A stretch of 47,335 bases of DNA from the NCBI RefSeq assembly GCF_000813725.1, contig NZ_JWLD01000047.1, forward strand, positions 102,581-149,915. Direction: 5' to 3'. Below are positions 2,555-17,445 of the stretch, piece by piece. Position 1 is the first letter of the stretch, and each line of letters starts with the position of its first letter. The translations under genes were made by a program, and so were the position numbers. The notes beneath the pieces were generated by a model. The model did no database searches and was not told where the DNA came from. It worked only from the letters and a program-made list of their open reading frames with translations. The stretch comes from Leisingera sp. ANG-Vp. Lineage in GTDB: Bacteria; Pseudomonadota; Alphaproteobacteria; Rhodobacterales; Rhodobacteraceae.

Positions 2555-4363
2555 TTAGAACGTCCGCGCCTTGGGCGCGATTTTCTTGAGGCTGATGCCG
2601 CCTTCATCCTCGGTGGTCAGCGGATCCTGGATCACCGGGCGGTAGGACAGCTCAACCTTGTTCCCTTCCACGCGGGAGACGGTGTGGACCCGCCAGTTCT
2701 CGTCGTCGCGCGTGGTGAAGTCCTCATGCGCATGGGCGCCGCGGCTTTCCTTGCGCGCCTCGGCGCCAACGATGGTGGCCAGCGCGTTCGGCATCAGGTT
2801 GGTGAGCTCCAGCGTCTCCATCAGGTCGGAGTTCCAGACCAGCGAGCGGTCGGTGACAGCCAGATCGTCCATCTTGGCCGCAATTGCAGTCATCTTCCCG
2901 ACGCCCTCGGCCATGGTCTCGGCGGTGCGGAACACCGCCGCGTCGGCCTGCATGCATTTCTGCATCTCCAGGCGCAGGTCCGCGGTCGGGATGCCGCCTT
3001 GGGCATTGCGCAGGGTGTCAAAGCGGTCAAACGCCTTGTCGACAGAAGCCTGGTTCAGCACCGGGTTCGCCGCATCTGCGTCCACAACCTTGCCCGCGCG
3101 GATGGCGGAGGCACGGCCAAAGACCACAAGGTCAATCAGCGAGTTGGAACCCAGACGGTTGGCGCCATGCACCGAGGCGCAGCCTGCTTCGCCCACGGCC
3201 ATCAGGCCCGGCACAACGGCGGTCGGATCATCCGCGGTCGGATTCAGCACCTCCCCCCAATAGTTGGTCGGGATACCGCCCATATTGTAATGCACGGTCG
3301 GCAGAACCGGGATCGGCTCTTTGGTCACATCCACGCCGGCAAAGATCTTGGCGCTTTCCGAAATACCCGGCAGCCGTTCCGCCAGCGCCTCGGCCGGCAG
3401 GTGGCTGAGGTTCAGGTGGATATGGTCGCCCTCGGCGCCGACGCCGCGGCCTTCGCGGATTTCCATCGTCATGGAGCGGGAGACATAGTCGCGCGGCGCC
3501 AGGTCTTTGTACTGGGGCGCATAGCGCTCCATGAAGCGTTCGCCTTCGGAGTTGGTCAGATAGCCGCCCTCGCCCCGCGCGCCTTCGGTGATCAGGCAGC
3601 CGGAGCCATAGATGCCGGTCGGGTGGAACTGCACAAATTCCATGTCCTGCAGCGCCAGCCCGGCGCGGGCCACCATGCCGCCGCCGTCGCCGGTGCAGGT
3701 ATGCGCCGAGGTAGCGGAGAAGTACGCACGGCCGTAGCCGCCGGTTGCCAGCACCACCATCTTGGCGTTGAAGACATGCATGGTGCCGTCATCCAGCTTC
3801 CAGCAGACAACGCCCTGGCACTGCCCGTCCTCGGACATGATCAGGTCGATGGCGAAATACTCGATGTAGAATTCCGCGTTGTTCTTCAGGCTCTGGCCAT
3901 AGAGCGTATGCAGAATCGCATGGCCGGTCCGGTCAGCGGCGGCACAGGTGCGCTGCACCGCAGGGCCTTCGCCGAACTCGGTGGTGTGGCCGCCGAAGGG
4001 GCGCTGGTAGATCTTGCCTTCCTCGGTGCGCGAGAACGGCACGCCGTAATGCTCCAGCTCGTAGACCGCCTTGGGCGCCTCCCGGGCCAGATATTCCATT
4101 GCATCGGTGTCGCCCAGCCAGTCGGAGCCCTTGACGGTGTCATACATATGCCACTGCCAGCTGTCCGGCCCCATGTTGCCCAGGGATGCGGCGATGCCGC
4201 CCTGCGCCGCAACAGTGTGGGAGCGGGTCGGGAACACTTTGGTCACGCAAGCGGTGCGCAGGCCCTGTTCCGCCATGCCAAGGGTCGCGCGCAAACCCGC
4301 GCCGCCTGCACCAACAACCACGACATCATACTCGTGGGTTTCATATTCATACGCTGCTGTCAT
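2555..4363 (-). CDS. sdhA: succinate dehydrogenase flavoprotein subunit
   Basis: The 602-residue catalytic subunit of complex II; it oxidises succinate to fumarate. The N-terminal dinucleotide fold [10 protein letters not shown] binds FAD, and His49 in [10 protein letters not shown] is the usual site of covalent flavin attachment. The HPTG and GARGEGG motifs of the dicarboxylate site are present, and the C-terminus is the usual helical domain ending [15 protein letters not shown] lies upstream of the ATG. It is third in the operon, 24 bp after sdhD. Confidence 0.98.
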
Positions 4364-4770: not shown

Positions 4771-5160
4771 TTACACCACGAGCACTGTGAGAATGGTCAG
4801 GACAGTGGCGCCGATGAACATGCCCTTGCCCAGTTTTTCAGAGACCGGGACATCCAGGCAGTAGCCGAAGTCCCAGATCACGTGCCGCAAACGGCCCAGC
4901 ATATGATACCAAAGCGCCCAGGCGGCGCCGAACAGAACCAGATCGCCCAGCCAGCTGCGCAGCAGCCCGTCGATAAAGGCAAAGGCGGTCTCCGAAGTGG
5001 CGGCGGCCAGCAGCCACCAAACCACCAGCAGGGTCAGAACCAGCGTCGCAATTCCCGTAATGCGGACCATGATCGATGAGATGGAGGTCATCTGCGGACG
5101 GTAGTACGGCCCGATCATGAATGGCGAAAGCGGGCGGTTGCCCCGATTGACATCGGCCAT
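4771..5160 (-). CDS. sdhC: succinate dehydrogenase cytochrome b556 subunit
   Basis: A 129-residue protein and the first gene of sdhCDAB. It shows the family signature RPLSPFMIGPYYRPQMTSI followed by SIMVRITG, three transmembrane helices, and the heme-binding motif HMLGRLRHVIWDFG (His86 and His93). It supplies the axial heme b ligand and part of the ubiquinone site. AAAGGAG precedes the ATG. The upstream region carries the two TGTGATCACA boxes described at 5275-5304. Confidence 0.97.
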   Translation of the reverse strand: MADVNRGNRPLSPFMIGPYYRPQMTSISSIMVRITGIATLVLTLLVVWWLLAAATSETAFAFIDGLLRSWLGDLVLFGAAWALWYHMLGRLRHVIWDFGYCLDVPVSEKLGKGMFIGATVLTILTVLVV

Positions 5161-5274
5161 GTTGGCTCCTTTCCGTTGGCTGACGACGTTTTAGCCGATT
5201 TTTACGTCGTGTCACCCGAAGGAAGGGTTAAAAACCATGTGAATTTGCTCTGTTGGCGCTAAAAGGTCACGCCT

Positions 5275-5304
5275 TGTGATCACACCAAATATTTAGTGAT
5301 CACA
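5275..5304 (-). promoter_or_regulatory. paired TGTGATCACA palindromes upstream of sdhC
   Basis: Two near-identical 10-bp palindromes, TGTGATCACA (5275-5284) and AGTGATCACA (5295-5304), have centres exactly 20 bp apart, so a dimeric regulator would bind both on one face of the helix. The near box is about 115 bp upstream of the sdhC start. The same arrangement occurs upstream of sucC. The motif suggests a helix-turn-helix dimer, but the regulator is not identified here. Confidence 0.7.
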
Positions 5305-5352: not shown

Positions 5353-6054
5353 TCACTGCAAAGCTGCCGCCCTCCGGCCCGCGCCATGCTGCACTGCGGC
5401 AGTCTGCCGGGCAACCTCGCGCACCAGCTTCCTGCGGATCCGGGACGGATAGTCGGCAAAACTCGCCGCTGTGACCACAAAGGCGCCCTCGCCGCGGATC
5501 ACATTCTCGAAAAAATAGGCCGTCAGATCCGGCTCGCTCTGCTCGATGGCAATCGCGTTCACTGTGACCCCCAGGGCAGACAGTGCACCATGCGCCTCGC
5601 GCGGCTCGACGCCCTCGTTGGAAAAGCCGTCGCCGGAAATGTCGATCACTTTGCGCTTGCACTGCGTCACAGCCGCAAACTGCTCCAGCGCCAGAAACAG
5701 CGCCTCGCCGACGGCGGTGGAATAATTACGCCAGGGCCGCGGTGCCTGTTCGATCCGCCGTGCCAGCGCCTCGACATCGGCAAAACTGCGCACTGAAGCC
5801 CAGGGCAGCGTCACCTCCTGCCGGGTCTCACCGGACCATTGCATCAGCATCACCTGTGCCCGTCCCTTGACGAGCGCTTCAGACACCACCCCATCGCGCA
5901 GCCCCGCGGCCAGCCCATCCATCTGGATCCGGTATTCGCTGGCATCCACAGAGCCGGAGACATCCACTGCCAGCACCAGCGCCAGATCGCAGGCCGCTGC
6001 CCGAAGCGGCCACAGGAAAAACAATGAAAAAACCATAAGCTGCATGACACGCAT
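5353..6054 (-). CDS. DUF1194 / von Willebrand factor A-type exported protein
   Basis: A 233-residue protein with an N-terminal signal peptide (MRVMQLMVFSLFFLWPLRAAA) and then CDLALVLAVDVSGSVD, a complete MIDAS metal-site motif (Asp31-x-Ser33-x-Ser35). KVIDISGDGFSNEG is the conserved second half of the DUF1194 domain. Such proteins are predicted to be periplasmic with a metal-dependent adhesion fold; their role is not established. The C-terminus ends in Arg/Ala/Gln-rich sequence. It lies upstream of sdhC on the same strand, with the sdh operators between them. Confidence 0.85.
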   Translation of the reverse strand: MRVMQLMVFSLFFLWPLRAAACDLALVLAVDVSGSVDASEYRIQMDGLAAGLRDGVVSEALVKGRAQVMLMQWSGETRQEVTLPWASVRSFADVEALARRIEQAPRPWRNYSTAVGEALFLALEQFAAVTQCKRKVIDISGDGFSNEGVEPREAHGALSALGVTVNAIAIEQSEPDLTAYFFENVIRGEGAFVVTAASFADYPSRIRRKLVREVARQTAAVQHGAGRRAAALQ

Positions 6055-7921: not shown

Positions 7922-8953
7922 TCACTTCGGCATCAAAGCCCAGTAGTCGAGATCCAGCAGCACATCGGGCAGGTACTTGCCGTCTTCGCCCTTCAGTTCA
8001 AACGGCGCACCGCCCTTGGTAGCCACCAGCCGCAGCCGGATCGCACCGACGCCCGGCGCATCTGTATCCGCCTTGTCCAGAACCTCGGACCAGGCCCGCA
8101 CGGTCAGCCCCGACAGGCAGGGGTTGGCGTGGGCGCCGCCGTTCAGGCCGACGATCATCTGCGCGTTTGCCAACCCGTTGAACGACAGCGTCCGCGCCAT
8201 TGAGATCACGTGGCCGCCATAGATCAGACGGGTTCCATCCGGGCGCGCCGTATTGTCGAAATGCACCTTGGCGGTGTTCTGCCACAGGCGGGTCGCCATC
8301 ATGTGCTCGGCTTCCTCGATGGTGACGCCATCCACATGGTCGATGGTCTCGCCAACCTCGTAGTCGCCCCAGCGGTGCGGCTCGCCGGCCAGGGTGAAAT
8401 CGTAATTGCTGAAATCCAGCCCGGCCGGGATTACCAGCTGCTCCGCCGGGATCACCTTGTTCAGTTCGGGGATCACGGTTTCGGGTGCCGGGGCCGAGAT
8501 ATCGCGTTTGCGCACCATCACCCAGCGCACGTATTCCATCACGCATTCATCGCGCTGGTTCAGGCCGCGGGTGCGGACATAGACCACGCCGGATTTGCCG
8601 TTGGAGTTCTGCTTGAGGCCGATCACCTCGGACTCCGAGCGCAGCGTGTCGCCGGGATAGACCGGCAGCAGCCAGCGCCCCTCGGCATAGCCAAGGTTCG
8701 CCAGCGCATTCAGCGAGATGTCCGGCACCGTCTTGCCGAACACCACGTGGAAGGCCGCCAGATCATCCAGCGGCGCCGAAGGCAGACCAGAGGCCCGGGC
8801 AAATTCATCCGAAGAATAGAGCGCATGGCGCGCCGGGTAGAGCGCATGATAGAGCGCCCGCTCGCCGCCCGATACCGTGCGCGGCACCGCATGGCGGATC
8901 ACCTCGCCAACGGTGTAGTCTTCAAAAAAGCGGCCCGGATTGGTCTTGGCCAT
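7922..8953 (-). CDS. mch: mesaconyl-CoA hydratase (beta-methylmalyl-CoA dehydratase)
   Basis: A 343-residue MaoC/hot-dog-fold protein with two tandem hot-dog halves. It begins MAKTNPGRFFEDYTVGEVIRHA, and the second half contains GDYEVGETIDHVDGVTIEEAEHM. By family it interconverts mesaconyl-C1-CoA and erythro-beta-methylmalyl-CoA in the ethylmalonyl-CoA pathway of acetate assimilation. The assignment is strengthened by mcl2 in the same operon, an arrangement I recall from Rhodobacter sphaeroides. Its ATG overlaps the DUF1737 stop codon (TGATG), implying translational coupling. Two hairpins follow the gene. Confidence 0.9.
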   Translation of the reverse strand: MAKTNPGRFFEDYTVGEVIRHAVPRTVSGGERALYHALYPARHALYSSDEFARASGLPSAPLDDLAAFHVVFGKTVPDISLNALANLGYAEGRWLLPVYPGDTLRSESEVIGLKQNSNGKSGVVYVRTRGLNQRDECVMEYVRWVMVRKRDISAPAPETVIPELNKVIPAEQLVIPAGLDFSNYDFTLAGEPHRWGDYEVGETIDHVDGVTIEEAEHMMATRLWQNTAKVHFDNTARPDGTRLIYGGHVISMARTLSFNGLANAQMIVGLNGGAHANPCLSGLTVRAWSEVLDKADTDAPGVGAIRLRLVATKGGAPFELKGEDGKYLPDVLLDLDYWALMPK

Positions 8954-13386: not shown

Positions 13387-13417
13387 TGTGATCACACCCC
13401 GGAAAAGCGTGATCACA
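13387..13417 (+). promoter_or_regulatory. paired TGTGATCACA palindromes upstream of sucC
   Basis: TGTGATCACA (13387-13396) and CGTGATCACA (13408-13417) have centres 21 bp apart, with the near box ending 113 bp before the sucC start. The flanks also match the sdh copy: TTGTGATCACACC on the left and GTGATCACAAA on the right. It is probably an operator for the regulator that also controls sdhCDAB; identity unknown. Confidence 0.7.
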
Positions 13418-13529
13418 AAACCCGAAAATCTTCATCATTTCCCGGCCTGCTGTCAAAAAAGCCTTTAACACTTGGCTTTAAGACGGCCTATTAAAGACAG
13501 ATTATTGCAGCCAGACGGGACAGTTTCAG

Positions 13530-14723
13530 ATGAACATCCACGAATATCAGGCCAAAGCCCTCCTTCGCAGCTACGGTGCCCCGGTGTCAGACGGCAAGGT
13601 GGTACTAAAGGCCGAAGATGCCAAAACCGCAGCAGGCGAGCTCGACGGCCCGCTTTGGGTGGTTAAAGCGCAGATTCATGCAGGCGGCCGCGGCAAGGGC
13701 TCCTTCAAGGAAGCAGACGCCGGCGAAAAAGGCGGCGTGCGCCTGACCAAATCCGTGGAAGAAGCGGCCGAGGAAGCCAAGAAGATGCTGGGCCGCACCC
13801 TGGTCACGCATCAGACCGGCCCGGCGGGCAAGCAGGTGAACCGCATCTATATCGAGGCCGGTTCGGGCATCAAAACCGAGCTGTACCTGGCGCTGCTGGT
13901 GGACCGCCAGACCTCGCGCATCTCCTTCGTCTGCTCGACCGAGGGCGGCATGGACATCGAGGAAGTGGCCGCCGCCACCCCGGAGAAGATCCTGTCCTTC
14001 TCTGTCGACCCGGCCACCGGCTACCAGGCCTACCACGGCCGCCGCATCGCGTTCTCATTGGGCCTCAAGGGCGCCCAGGTCAAGCAATGCGTCAAGCTGA
14101 TGGGCCAGCTGTACCAGGCCTTCGTCGAGAAGGACATGGAGATGCTGGAGATCAACCCGCTGATCGTCGGCGACGACGACAGCCTCAAGGTGCTGGACGC
14201 CAAGGTCGGCTTTGACGGCAACGCGGTCTACCGCCATGCCGACGTGGCCGAGCTGCGCGACACCACCGAGGAAGACCCGAAAGAGCTGGAAGCCTCCAAG
14301 TACGACCTGAACTACATCGCGCTCGACGGCGAGATCGGCTGCATGGTGAACGGCGCAGGCCTGGCGATGGCCACCATGGACATCATCAAGCTTTATGGCG
14401 CTGAGCCTGCCAACTTCCTCGACGTCGGCGGCGGCGCCACCAAGGAGAAGGTCACCGAGGCGTTCAAGATCATCACCTCCGATCCCAACGTCAAAGGCAT
14501 CCTGGTGAACATCTTCGGCGGCATCATGCGCTGCGACGTGATCGCCGAGGGCGTGGTTGCAGCCGTCAAGGAAGTCGGCCTGCAGGTGCCGCTGGTGGTC
14601 CGCCTTGAGGGCACCAACGTCGAGAAAGGCAAGGAGATCATCAACACCTCCGGCCTGGACGTGATCGCTGCGGATGACCTGAAAGACGGCGCCGAGAAGA
14701 TCGTGAAGGCGGTCAAGGGCTGA
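13530..14723 (+). CDS. sucC: succinyl-CoA synthetase beta subunit (ADP-forming)
   Basis: A 397-residue ATP-grasp subunit. It begins [19 protein letters not shown], has the grasp loop [19 protein letters not shown], the Mg-binding MLEINPLIV, and the CoA-ligase half [20 protein letters not shown] with [14 protein letters not shown]. With SucD it converts succinyl-CoA to succinate with nucleotide triphosphate formation. It is the first gene of the suc operon, after the paired operator. Only a weak ribosome site (GGGAC) precedes the ATG. An accessory lipoprotein gene starts 5 bp after its stop codon. Confidence 0.98.
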
Positions 14724-14728
14724 GCGGA

Positions 14729-15499
14729 ATGAGATTCGGTTCCATTTCGGCTGTCAGCTTCGCGCTGATGTGTGCGGCGTGTTCCAGCGGTTACACCGCT
14801 GGAGACGCCGAGCTGAACCTTGCTTCCGCAAGTAGTGAAGCCCCGGAACAAGGCGCTTATGTTGCAACCGCAGCGCCAGCTGCAGGCGGGCGATACGATC
14901 CTGCAACCGACGTCTTCGTTCCGGCACCCGGCACCTATGGCAGCCACGAGGTATTGAATTCCACCGCCGCACCCGCGGCTTCACAGACAACTGCGAATGC
15001 ACCAGCAGCCTTTGCGAGCGCAACTGTGCCGGCAGCCCCGGTGCAAAACGTTGCGTTCTCCTCCTCCGCCAGCCCGGCAGGCGAGGTGCCTCTTTTGGTT
15101 CAAACCTGTGTTCAATCCGTTTCCGGAGCTTTCGGGAATGCTGATGGGCTCGCACAGAGGGGCTATAAGCTGCAGCGTGTCTCGGAGTCCCGCCGTAAGT
15201 TCCAACGGAAGTTTCCGGTCTCCACTTTTGCGGCTCTGAATGGCTCCCACCGGTCCTCAGGATTGGAACTGCGGGCAAATCCGCGGCGCTCCGAGAACTA
15301 CTGCTCTGTCACAATCACAAGCAATGAAAGCCCTGGCAGCGTGACTGCGGCTTTGCGCAGCTCTCTTGCAAACGCAGGTTTTCGCGAAATCGGCGGTGAC
15401 ACTTGGAGCAATGGCAGCAGGCAATTCAAGGTGTCCCAATTCCTGTCCGGCTCCAGGGTCGCCTGGACCACCTCGGTCAACATTACTGAAGCCCGATAG
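14729..15499 (+). CDS. accessory lipoprotein inserted after sucC
   Basis: A 256-residue predicted lipoprotein: hydrophobic leader, then MCAACSS with Cys as acceptor. Residues ~25-110 are low-complexity Ala/Ser/Pro/Thr-rich, typical of a linker. The C-terminal ~140 residues form a folded-looking domain with Cys in [14 protein letters not shown] and [12 protein letters not shown], suggesting one disulfide. No family is recognised. It is 5 bp downstream of sucC with no Shine-Dalgarno sequence other than the sucC end, so it is likely coupled. It is less G+C-rich than sucC and unrelated to the TCA cycle; probably an acquired gene. A hairpin lies at 14783-14803. Confidence 0.75.
14783..14803 (+). 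other. 3-base-loop hairpin near the start of the sucC/sucD insert
   Basis: TCCAGCGGT-TAC-ACCGCTGGA, a perfect 9-bp stem, 60 bp after the sucC stop codon and inside the lipoprotein frame. It is one of three similar hairpins at the starts of the suc-operon inserts; there is no T-tract, so RNA stability or attenuation is more likely than termination. Confidence 0.5.
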
Positions 15500-15545
15500 C
15501 GCAATCTTGCGCCCCTTGGATCAGATCACTCTAGGAGCCTTTCAA

Positions 15546-15641
15546 ATGCAACGACCAACTGGCGGAATCAAACGGACCATTGAGCAGCAGCAAGCTGCTT
15601 CAGTGACTGTTTCCCCAACAACGCAAGGTCAAGGCAAGTGA
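15546..15641 (+). CDS. possible 31-residue peptide
   Basis: A short frame starting MQRPTGGIKRTIEQQQAA with AGGAG 8 bases before its ATG, in the 209-bp gap between the lipoprotein and methyltransferase genes. It is hydrophilic and Gln/Thr-rich, with no membrane segment. The good ribosome site is the only support; it could equally be non-coding. Confidence 0.25.
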   Translation: MQRPTGGIKRTIEQQQAASVTVSPTTQGQGK

Positions 15642-15708
15642 AAGCCGCCGCCTTCCTCACAAGCTTGCGGCAAACCGCTGCGCGCCTCTCAAAACAGGAA
15701 CAAAACTG

Positions 15709-16542
15709 ATGCCGCAGGCAACCTCAGATACCGGTCAGCATTCGTCTCCGGACGATGCACAGCCGCGCGCCTGCCCGGCCTGCGGCAGCAGCGGGTATCA
15801 GCGGCTTGACGAATACTCTCCTGACCATTGGGAAATGGCGGAATGCGCAGGTTGCGGCTTTGTCTTTCTGCGCAACCCGCCGGGCTATGAAGCGCTCAAA
15901 GAGGAGTTCGCCTGGGAGCGCACATTCGAGGCCAAGAAAGCTGCCTCCCGCGGGTCAACCCCATTCAGCCCTTTGGCCCGCAAGATCCGCGGCGCCCTGC
16001 GGATGGGCCGGGACAAGACCGCGTCCTACCGCAGGTGGTTCAATGATGGCCATGTGCTGGACATCGGCTGCGGCAGCGGCGGGCGCATCGCACCGCCGAT
16101 GACTCCCTATGGGATCGAACTCTCCTCCGGCCTGCACAAGATTGCCGATGAGTTCATGCGCGCGCATGGCGGCTATTGCCTGCATGGCCCGGGCGCCAAG
16201 GCGATCTGGCAATTCCCCGAAGGGCTGTTCGACGGCATCCTCATGCACTCCTACCTGGAGCATGAAACCGAAGTCTCAGAAGTCCTGCAAGGCGCCCACC
16301 GCGCCCTGAAACCTGGCGGCGGCGTTTTTGTGCGCGTGCCCAATTACGCCTCGCTCAACCGCCGAGTAGTCGGCCCCAAATGGTGCGGTTTCCGCTACCC
16401 CGACCACGTCAATTACTTCACTCTCAGCAGCCTCACAGACGTCGCGGCCAAAGCCGGGTTCACCACCCGGCTGGTCAACCGTGTCACCCTGCACATTGAC
16501 GACAATGTCTCGGTGCTGCTGCGCAAAAGCAACGCTTCCTAA
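15709..16542 (+). CDS. class I SAM-dependent methyltransferase with N-terminal zinc ribbon
   Basis: A 277-residue protein. Residues ~20-60 carry two Cys pairs (ACPACGSSGY and ECAGCGFVF), a zinc-ribbon head. The methyltransferase domain follows: SAM motif I VLDIGCGSGGRI (about residues 111-122), an acidic strand end YGIELS, FDGILMHSYLEH as motif IV, and HRALKPGGGVFVRVPNY as the post-IV segment. This layout is shared with sugar or cell-surface-polymer methyltransferases; substrate unknown. It is wedged between sucC and sucD and has no evident link to the cycle. Confidence 0.85.
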   Translation: MPQATSDTGQHSSPDDAQPRACPACGSSGYQRLDEYSPDHWEMAECAGCGFVFLRNPPGYEALKEEFAWERTFEAKKAASRGSTPFSPLARKIRGALRMGRDKTASYRRWFNDGHVLDIGCGSGGRIAPPMTPYGIELSSGLHKIADEFMRAHGGYCLHGPGAKAIWQFPEGLFDGILMHSYLEHETEVSEVLQGAHRALKPGGGVFVRVPNYASLNRRVVGPKWCGFRYPDHVNYFTLSSLTDVAAKAGFTTRLVNRVTLHIDDNVSVLLRKSNAS

Positions 16543-16560: not shown

Positions 16561-17445
16561 ATGGCAGTCCTCATCGACGAAAACACCAAAGTCATCTGTC
16601 AGGGCTTCACCGGCTCGCAGGGCACATTCCACTCCGAACAGGCCATCGCCTATGGCACCAAGATGGTTGGCGGCGTCACCCCGGGCAAAGGCGGCCAGAC
16701 CCACCTGAACCTGCCGGTGTTCGACTCCGTGCACGAAGCCAAGCATGTGACCGAAGCCAACGCCTCGGTGATCTACGTGCCCCCGCCCTTTGCTGCGGAC
16801 TCGATCCTTGAGGCCATCGACGCGGAAATGGACGTGATCGTCGCGATCACCGAGGGCATCCCGGTTCTCGACATGATGCGGGTGAAGCGCGCGCTGGAGA
16901 ACTCCTCCTCGATCCTGATCGGCCCCAACTGCCCCGGTGTGATCACCCCGGACGCCTGCAAGATCGGCATCATGCCCGGCCACATCCACAAGCGCGGCAA
17001 TGTGGGCGTTGTCTCCCGCTCCGGCACCCTGACCTATGAGGCTGTGAAGCAGACCTCAGACGTGGGCCTGGGCCAGTCGACCTGCGTCGGCATCGGCGGC
17101 GACCCGATCAAGGGCACCGAGCATATCGACGTGCTGGAATGGTTCCTGGCCGATGACGAGACCGAAAGCATCATCATGATCGGCGAAATCGGCGGCTCCG
17201 CCGAGGAAGAGGCCGCGCAATTCCTGGCCGATGAGGCCAAGAAGGGCCGCTCCAAGCCGGTAGCAGGCTTCATTGCAGGCCGCACCGCCCCTCCGGGCCG
17301 CCGCATGGGCCACGCGGGCGCCATTGTCGCCGGCGGCAAAGGCGGTGCTGACGACAAGATCGAAGCGATGAAATCCGCAGGCATCGTGGTCGCCGAAAGC
17401 CCGGCCGGCCTGGGTGAAGCGGTTCTGAAAGCGATCGGCAAGTAA
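16561..17445 (+). CDS. sucD: succinyl-CoA synthetase alpha subunit
   Basis: A 294-residue subunit. The CoA-binding Rossmann half begins [28 protein letters not shown]. The phosphohistidine is His251 in [11 protein letters not shown]. It partners SucC in succinyl-CoA/succinate interconversion. Its ribosome site is weak (AAGGATCAAAACGAC before the ATG). It is separated from sucC by a lipoprotein gene and a methyltransferase gene, so subunit balance depends on readthrough of the insert. Confidence 0.98.

Follow-up and report, generated by a model that had tools for sequence, protein, structure and literature searches.

Paired palindromes upstream of sdhC and sucC in Leisingera sp. ANG-Vp as very probable operators of the GntR-family regulator AkgR

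Which protein reads the pair of short palindromes that precedes both sucC and sdhC in Leisingera sp. ANG-Vp, and how might it act on these two TCA-cycle operons? A preliminary description of this DNA proposed that an unidentified regulator of the TCA cycle binds each pair as two dimers. We analyzed a window, that is, the whole stretch of 47,335 nucleotides in which both pairs are found (G000:C86:102581-149915). The relevant features are as follows; the boxes are labeled by the regulator discussed below.

13387-13396, no strand assigned: sucC box 1, AkgR-type, TGTGATCACA, with the core GTGATCAC at 13388-13395, read directly
13408-13417, no strand assigned: sucC box 2, AkgR-type, CGTGATCACA, with the core at 13409-13416, centre 21 bp from that of box 1
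5295-5304, no strand assigned: sdhC box 1 (gene-distal), AkgR-type, AGTGATCACA on the plus strand, read directly
5275-5284, no strand assigned: sdhC box 2 (gene-proximal), AkgR-type, TGTGATCACA, centre 20 bp from that of box 1
13530-14723, plus strand: sucC, succinate-CoA ligase beta subunit (NF001913, 585.5 bits, cut-off 370)
4771-5160, minus strand: sdhC, succinate dehydrogenase cytochrome b556 subunit, the first gene after the pair (TIGR02970, over cut-off)
2555-4363, minus strand: sdhA, flavoprotein subunit of succinate dehydrogenase, which follows sdhC downstream and shares its strand (TIGR01816, over cut-off)

The 8-bp palindrome GTGATCAC is the core common to all four boxes, and one box of each pair deviates at its first base from TGTGATCACA, the form quoted previously. 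From the end of the 8-bp core to the ATG the distance is 113 bp at sucC (ATG at 13530) and 115 bp at sdhC (ATG at 5160, minus strand), and the core-to-core gap is 13 and 12 bp, respectively. Both pairs, with the centre spacings claimed for them, could thus be read directly from the sequence. In the whole genome (5,150,147 bases), the pattern GTGATCACN{9,13}GTGATCAC occurred at two places only, before sdhC and before sucC. As single GTGATCAC sites number 251, about 0.06 random pairs would be expected genome-wide, and the earlier view that the two pairs are unlikely to have arisen by chance holds. A reversed-pattern control for the single palindrome gave 4 matches, which is an unfair comparison because the pattern contains CTAG, a tetranucleotide scarce in bacteria. 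When gaps of 6–19 bp were considered, one additional pair with as few as 2 mismatches was found in the window (at 8448). Because the whole genome has just two exact pairs, none is located before mdh, as had been described; the same count fits the claimed lack of a pair upstream of mcl2.

Several neighboring frames were also noted. The interval between sucC and sucD (14729-16542; sucD at 16561-17445) holds two open frames, one at 14729-15499 (256 aa, no Pfam match) and one at 15709-16542 (277 aa, methyltransferase domain); a gene within the suc operon would be unusual. On the other side, the sdhC boxes sit between sdhC and a 233-aa frame on the minus strand (5353-6054), which looks secreted and, by eye from its translation, DUF1194-like.

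Of 394 genomes that represent 393 genera of the family, 359 had the pair (gap 7–15 bp), most of them in exactly two copies, and the reversed-pattern control for the pair gave 0 throughout the 394-genome table. For 20 genomes in which both places were fetched, all 40 were located before sdhC or sucC, one each. A larger set of 130 pair occurrences (gap 12–13 bp; two 20-kb loci, L289 and L291, excluded) comprised 64 distinct sites before sdhC, 63 before sucC and 3 assigned to neither gene (L316, L292 and L293). The gap was 13 bp in 116 of the 127 sites and 12 bp in the other 11 (searched at 12–13 bp only); when gaps of 7–15 bp were searched, gaps of 12 and 13 bp, plus 10 bp at three places, were seen among the matches listed. 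The flanks were mostly near-random (largely below 0.5 bit) apart from a TTT next to box 1 and an AAA next to box 2, each on the outer side, so that the whole element is symmetric. It should be noted that the cores are perfect in these profiles by construction, since the sites were fetched by exact match; the unbiased conservation figure is 359/394. A scan of related genomes had been proposed as a check on the paired motif, with loss of the boxes from otherwise retained flanks counting against it. The opposite was observed: the exact pair is kept in 359 of the 394 genomes and the flanks are mostly near-random, which supports a conserved, protein-binding-like element common to two TCA-cycle operons. 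In a class-wide sample of 289 genomes that were at least 90% complete, the pair was detected in 7, i.e., five of the host family and two others.

One part of the preliminary description did not stand, namely that the regulator is unidentified. Imam, Noguera and Donohue reportedly equated AkgR with RSP_0981 in 2015 and found that it directly activates several TCA-cycle genes. The name AkgR appears in their 2015 paper on Rhodobacter sphaeroides (mBio 6:e02461-14), and excerpts from the literature term this protein an activator. The relevant excerpt of another study places sdh, suc and 2-oxoglutarate dehydrogenase under the predicted control of the R. sphaeroides GntR protein RSP_0981, with RSP_0967-6 (succinyl-CoA synthetase), RSP_0974-6 (succinate dehydrogenase) and RSP_0965-62 among its predicted targets (PMC4344238), and GTGATCAC is reported among the AkgR binding sites in an excerpt of a third (PMC6365646). 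The sdh and suc targets (with the 2-oxoglutarate dehydrogenase genes) agree with those found here, and the GTGATCAC palindrome is present in the target promoters. Judged by the published motif and targets, the regulator that binds the pairs is very probably AkgR.

To which host gene does this correspond? There were 35 GntR-domain matches in the host. The loci of 30 were inspected, and in just two of these, L061 and L053, was GTGATCAC located 200 bp or less upstream of the HTH. L061 is a 217-aa gene (G000:C122:62483-63133) with GntR and FCD domains (PF00392 and PF07729, over cut-off), located on a contig other than that of sdh and suc. Two GTGATCAC palindromes precede it, the nearer one immediately before the start codon. 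Another GntR gene, L045 (226 aa), is located on the contig of the window and was rejected, as its 3.2-kb locus has no GTGATCAC.

L061 is likely the AkgR ortholog. This assignment was made by gene order and through a sister species. In Cereibacter johrii, which belongs to the R. sphaeroides group and was reached through a cytochrome c2 bait, the L061 ortholog (78% identity) adjoins sdhB with one small gene between them. The order, read by eye, is sdhC, sdhD, sdhA, two small frames, sdhB, the small gene and the ortholog; when sdhC is counted as RSP_0974, the ortholog is eighth and therefore occupies the position of RSP_0981. By these means a likely RSP_0981 ortholog was recognized in the host. 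Luteovulum azotoformans (L291) has the same sdh neighborhood and a pair before sdhC. The ortholog is also present in C. ovatus (L290), where neither sdh nor a pair occurred within the fetched 20 kb. In 59 genomes of the class, chosen from the 284 outside the host family and searched together with G114, only distant AkgR-like proteins were detected, with a best identity of 42%.

If AkgR reads the pairs, the two should occur together. All 28 pair-bearing genomes tested had an L061 ortholog (E<1e-77); 15 of these orthologs were aligned to L061 and were 62–82% identical, and in 12 of the 28 genomes the ortholog was found on the contig of the pair, within 8–18 kb. When the same 394 genomes were considered, 360 contained the ortholog (E at most 1e-50), and a hand tally gave 350 genomes with both, 25 with neither, 9 with the pair only and 10 with the ortholog only (Fisher p 3e-24, a significance that is overstated, as genomes were treated as independent). 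Eight of the 9 pair-only genomes were less than 95% complete, and 18 of the 25 genomes with neither were at least 95% complete.

Discordant genomes that were at least 95% complete were G114, which has the pair and no ortholog, and G040, G281, G291 and G338, which have the ortholog and no exact pair. Two exact pairs, one of them before sucC, were found in G114, a genome listed as 100% complete and split into 320 contigs; a search of 26 genomes that allowed 3 mismatches gave too much noise to be of use beyond G114. In G040 and G291, a one-mismatch pair was located before sucC at -108 and -95, respectively, which is the usual distance. The ortholog matches of G338 and G281 were among the weakest (E about 1e-55 and 6e-59), and there was no pair before their sucC genes. 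For the remaining six ortholog-only genomes (71–92% complete), the target region is probably absent from the assembly, since no sucC was found in four of them and the other two yielded just a distant ligase. Among all 35 pair-negative genomes, 30 gave a sucC match; four of these matches were just 50–54% identical and are probably a related ligase. In 24 ortholog-negative genomes, the 350 bp before sucC contained no pair with fewer than 3 mismatches. One genome without an AkgR ortholog, G017 (L340), has GCGATCGC-N12-GCGATCAC about 130 bp before sucC, near the usual distance, which is possibly a drifted or re-targeted pair.

We also placed the site on a SucC tree of 87 rows (about 200 N-terminal residues; the bootstrap had not settled). 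The pair site needs 13 changes on this tree, with 2–3 contrasts on well-supported branches, and in these the site changes in the same direction as the ortholog, although the contrasts are too few for significance. Thus, regulator and sites occur together across genomes, with few independent contrasts on supported branches.

The gene of the regulator carries the box as well. The ortholog was preceded by GTGATCAC at 41 of the 50 distinct loci compared (a sample rich in close relatives), and in 39 of those 41 it was located 169–187 bp before codon 55, i.e., just ahead of the translation start. It was missing in the other 9 loci, three of Cereibacter and Luteovulum and six others. The position of the box at the start of akgR suggests that AkgR represses its own synthesis. 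In most orthologs the upstream region has a single box; therefore, one palindrome may suffice for some binding.

This last point bears on a variant of the AkgR reading that is compatible with it, in which each pair forms a single composite operator for an AkgR tetramer (dimer of dimers). The narrow range of gaps and the symmetry given to the whole element by its outer TTT and AAA flanks speak for such a composite, the single boxes at akgR speak against it, and FCD-type GntR proteins are usually dimers. We regard the tetramer as a tentative option, somewhat on the doubtful side.

How the pairs are placed relative to the promoters gives a further indication of their function. We located a candidate promoter for each operon.

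13465-13494, plus strand: putative sucC promoter, -35-like TTAACA at 13465-13470, 18-bp spacer, -10-like TATTAA at 13489-13494
5188-5215, minus strand: putative sdhC promoter, -35-like GTGACA at 5215-5210, 16-bp spacer, -10-like TAAAAC at 5193-5188

Upstream of sdhC, a -35-like hexamer, [CG]GTGAC[AT], occurred in 56 of 64 sites (it was absent from the other 8), compared with 2.8% of shuffled upstream stretches. It started 61–64 bp from the centre of box 2 in 49 of the 64 sites; the exceptions were at 40, 51, 52, 72, 82, 83 and 218 bp, and six of these seven were within 1.6 bp of whole helical turns (10.5 bp). In a Monte Carlo test, which was devised post hoc and treated sites as independent, this phasing had p values of 0.0016, 0.004 and 0.005 for periods of 10.5, 10 and 11 bp, respectively, without the 218-bp outlier, and of 0.002–0.036 (periods 10–11 bp) with it. 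Upstream of sucC, 52 sites had an ATG distance of 100–120 bp, and 49 of them carried T at both +51 and +52, counted from the centre of box 2; by an alternative count, a T-rich -35-like hexamer started at 50–52 bp in 47 of 63 sites. The sucC hexamer is thus about one turn nearer to box 2 than the sdhC hexamer. As the pair is fixed or phased relative to the -35-like element, its approach to the polymerase seems to be from a single face of the helix at sdhC and sucC alike. Such geometry would be expected of an activator, here one that works from positions near -88 (sucC) and -99 (sdhC), with transcript starts predicted near 13501 and 5181, respectively.

Taken together, these data point to the boxes as operators of AkgR (L061), with one dimer per palindrome, joint activation of sdh and suc, and feedback on akgR; we assign this reading a probability of about 0.88. 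According to this model, an AkgR dimer would occupy each palindrome and, because the palindromes are two helical turns apart, the two dimers would be positioned on the same face of the DNA; such binding of two dimers is plausible. The nearer box lies upstream of the -35-like element, by five turns at sucC and six at sdhC, and would be centred near -88 and -99, respectively. From there AkgR may contact RNA polymerase, probably through the C-terminal domain of the alpha subunit, and thereby activate the sdh and suc operons jointly, and the single box at the start of akgR may provide negative feedback by autorepression. AkgR may also respond to a metabolite, for which its name would suggest 2-oxoglutarate.

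What had looked like a new TCA-cycle regulator can thus be given a name, and its likely operators are present in 359 of 394 genomes, mostly at two promoters. The sdh and suc operons are a simple control point, as they are located at the 2-oxoglutarate/succinate segment that is used on organic acids, and the phasing predicts how an FCD-type GntR protein can work as an activator.

Could another GntR protein of the subfamily, of the L062 or L053 type, be the main regulator of the pairs or share them with AkgR? L062, L053 and L061 all have a methionine just before the recognition-helix motif P[VA]REA (MTP or MP). L053 has GTGATCAC 175 bp before its own HTH, and its contig, C21, contains six single GTGATCAC boxes. 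In addition, a Pseudomonas regulator 32% identical to AkgR is proposed, in an excerpt of its report, to use the same palindrome (PMC6365646). However, the L062 group (50–75% identity) was present in only 13 of the 28 pair-bearing genomes, compared with 28 of 28 for the L061 ortholog, and was rejected as the main regulator; it is the L061 ortholog that the pair tracks over the 394 genomes. We consider a main or shared role of such a paralog improbable.

TGTGA and TCACA halves resemble CRP half-sites, and the CRP consensus is TGTGA-N6-TCACA, with a 6-bp spacer; the halves of the boxes abut, and a CRP-type site was rejected for lack of this spacer. CceR, a central carbon regulator, is a LacI-family protein that differs from AkgR in protein family and motif. 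In an excerpt of the relevant report, CceR likewise regulates TCA genes in R. sphaeroides, including those for succinate dehydrogenase and 2-oxoglutarate dehydrogenase (PMC11323563). Nevertheless, an unrelated regulator of the CRP/FNR or CceR type whose sites are merely co-kept with AkgR is very improbable, given that akgR is itself preceded by the same 8-mer at 41 of 50 loci and that GTGATCAC is the AkgR motif in the reported excerpt (PMC6365646).

With AkgR as the preferred regulator, the host system resembles that of R. sphaeroides in its GntR family, its target operons and the palindrome GTGATCAC, as far as the published excerpts describe them, and the C. johrii ortholog is located in a matching gene neighborhood. 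It differs in that the host gene is on a contig separate from sdh and suc and has a box at its own start, which is absent from the Cereibacter loci. McbR of E. coli has targets different from those of AkgR. By sequence, it is the closest solved structure (PDB 4p9f; host residues 21–213, E 1e-19). The Pseudomonas regulator mentioned above is PS417_07240, a GntR protein of the deoxyribonate cluster of Pseudomonas simiae. It differs from AkgR in having one box, at -47 to -40 before its own start codon, and other targets, and the excerpt describing it mentions no pair (PMC6365646). A full-text literature search for TGTGATCACA returned no paper that by its title deals with the subject. The regulator, very probably AkgR, was already known; what is added here is the family-wide two-site regulon, the strict gap of 12–13 bp, the phasing with the -35-like element and a box just before akgR itself. 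We describe the paired, phased layout and make no claim that the pairing is unpublished.

The 21-bp spacing may itself be a specificity code: several GntR paralogs within one cell would share the 8-bp palindrome, and reading two of them at a spacing of two turns would be reserved for AkgR in the form of a cooperative dimer of dimers. We offer this as a conjecture that may well prove wrong. If true, the 2-oxoglutarate-to-fumarate segment of the TCA cycle would have a regulon of two targets that is nearly unique in the genome and retained in most of the family, with the distance to the promoter shifting mainly by whole helical turns.

Two other occurrences of the palindrome were noted. In G522, one of the two genomes outside the host family in the class-wide sample, a pair with a 13-bp gap is located directly before a GntR-type frame of the same subfamily (1028-1903; L292 992-1903), and this was the sole pair found in that genome. 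In the host, the six GTGATCAC boxes of G000:C21:1654-8988 (L101-L106 and L053) surround a second GntR gene, L053, whose recognition helix is AkgR-like, a hint that the box also serves a paralog with a different regulon.
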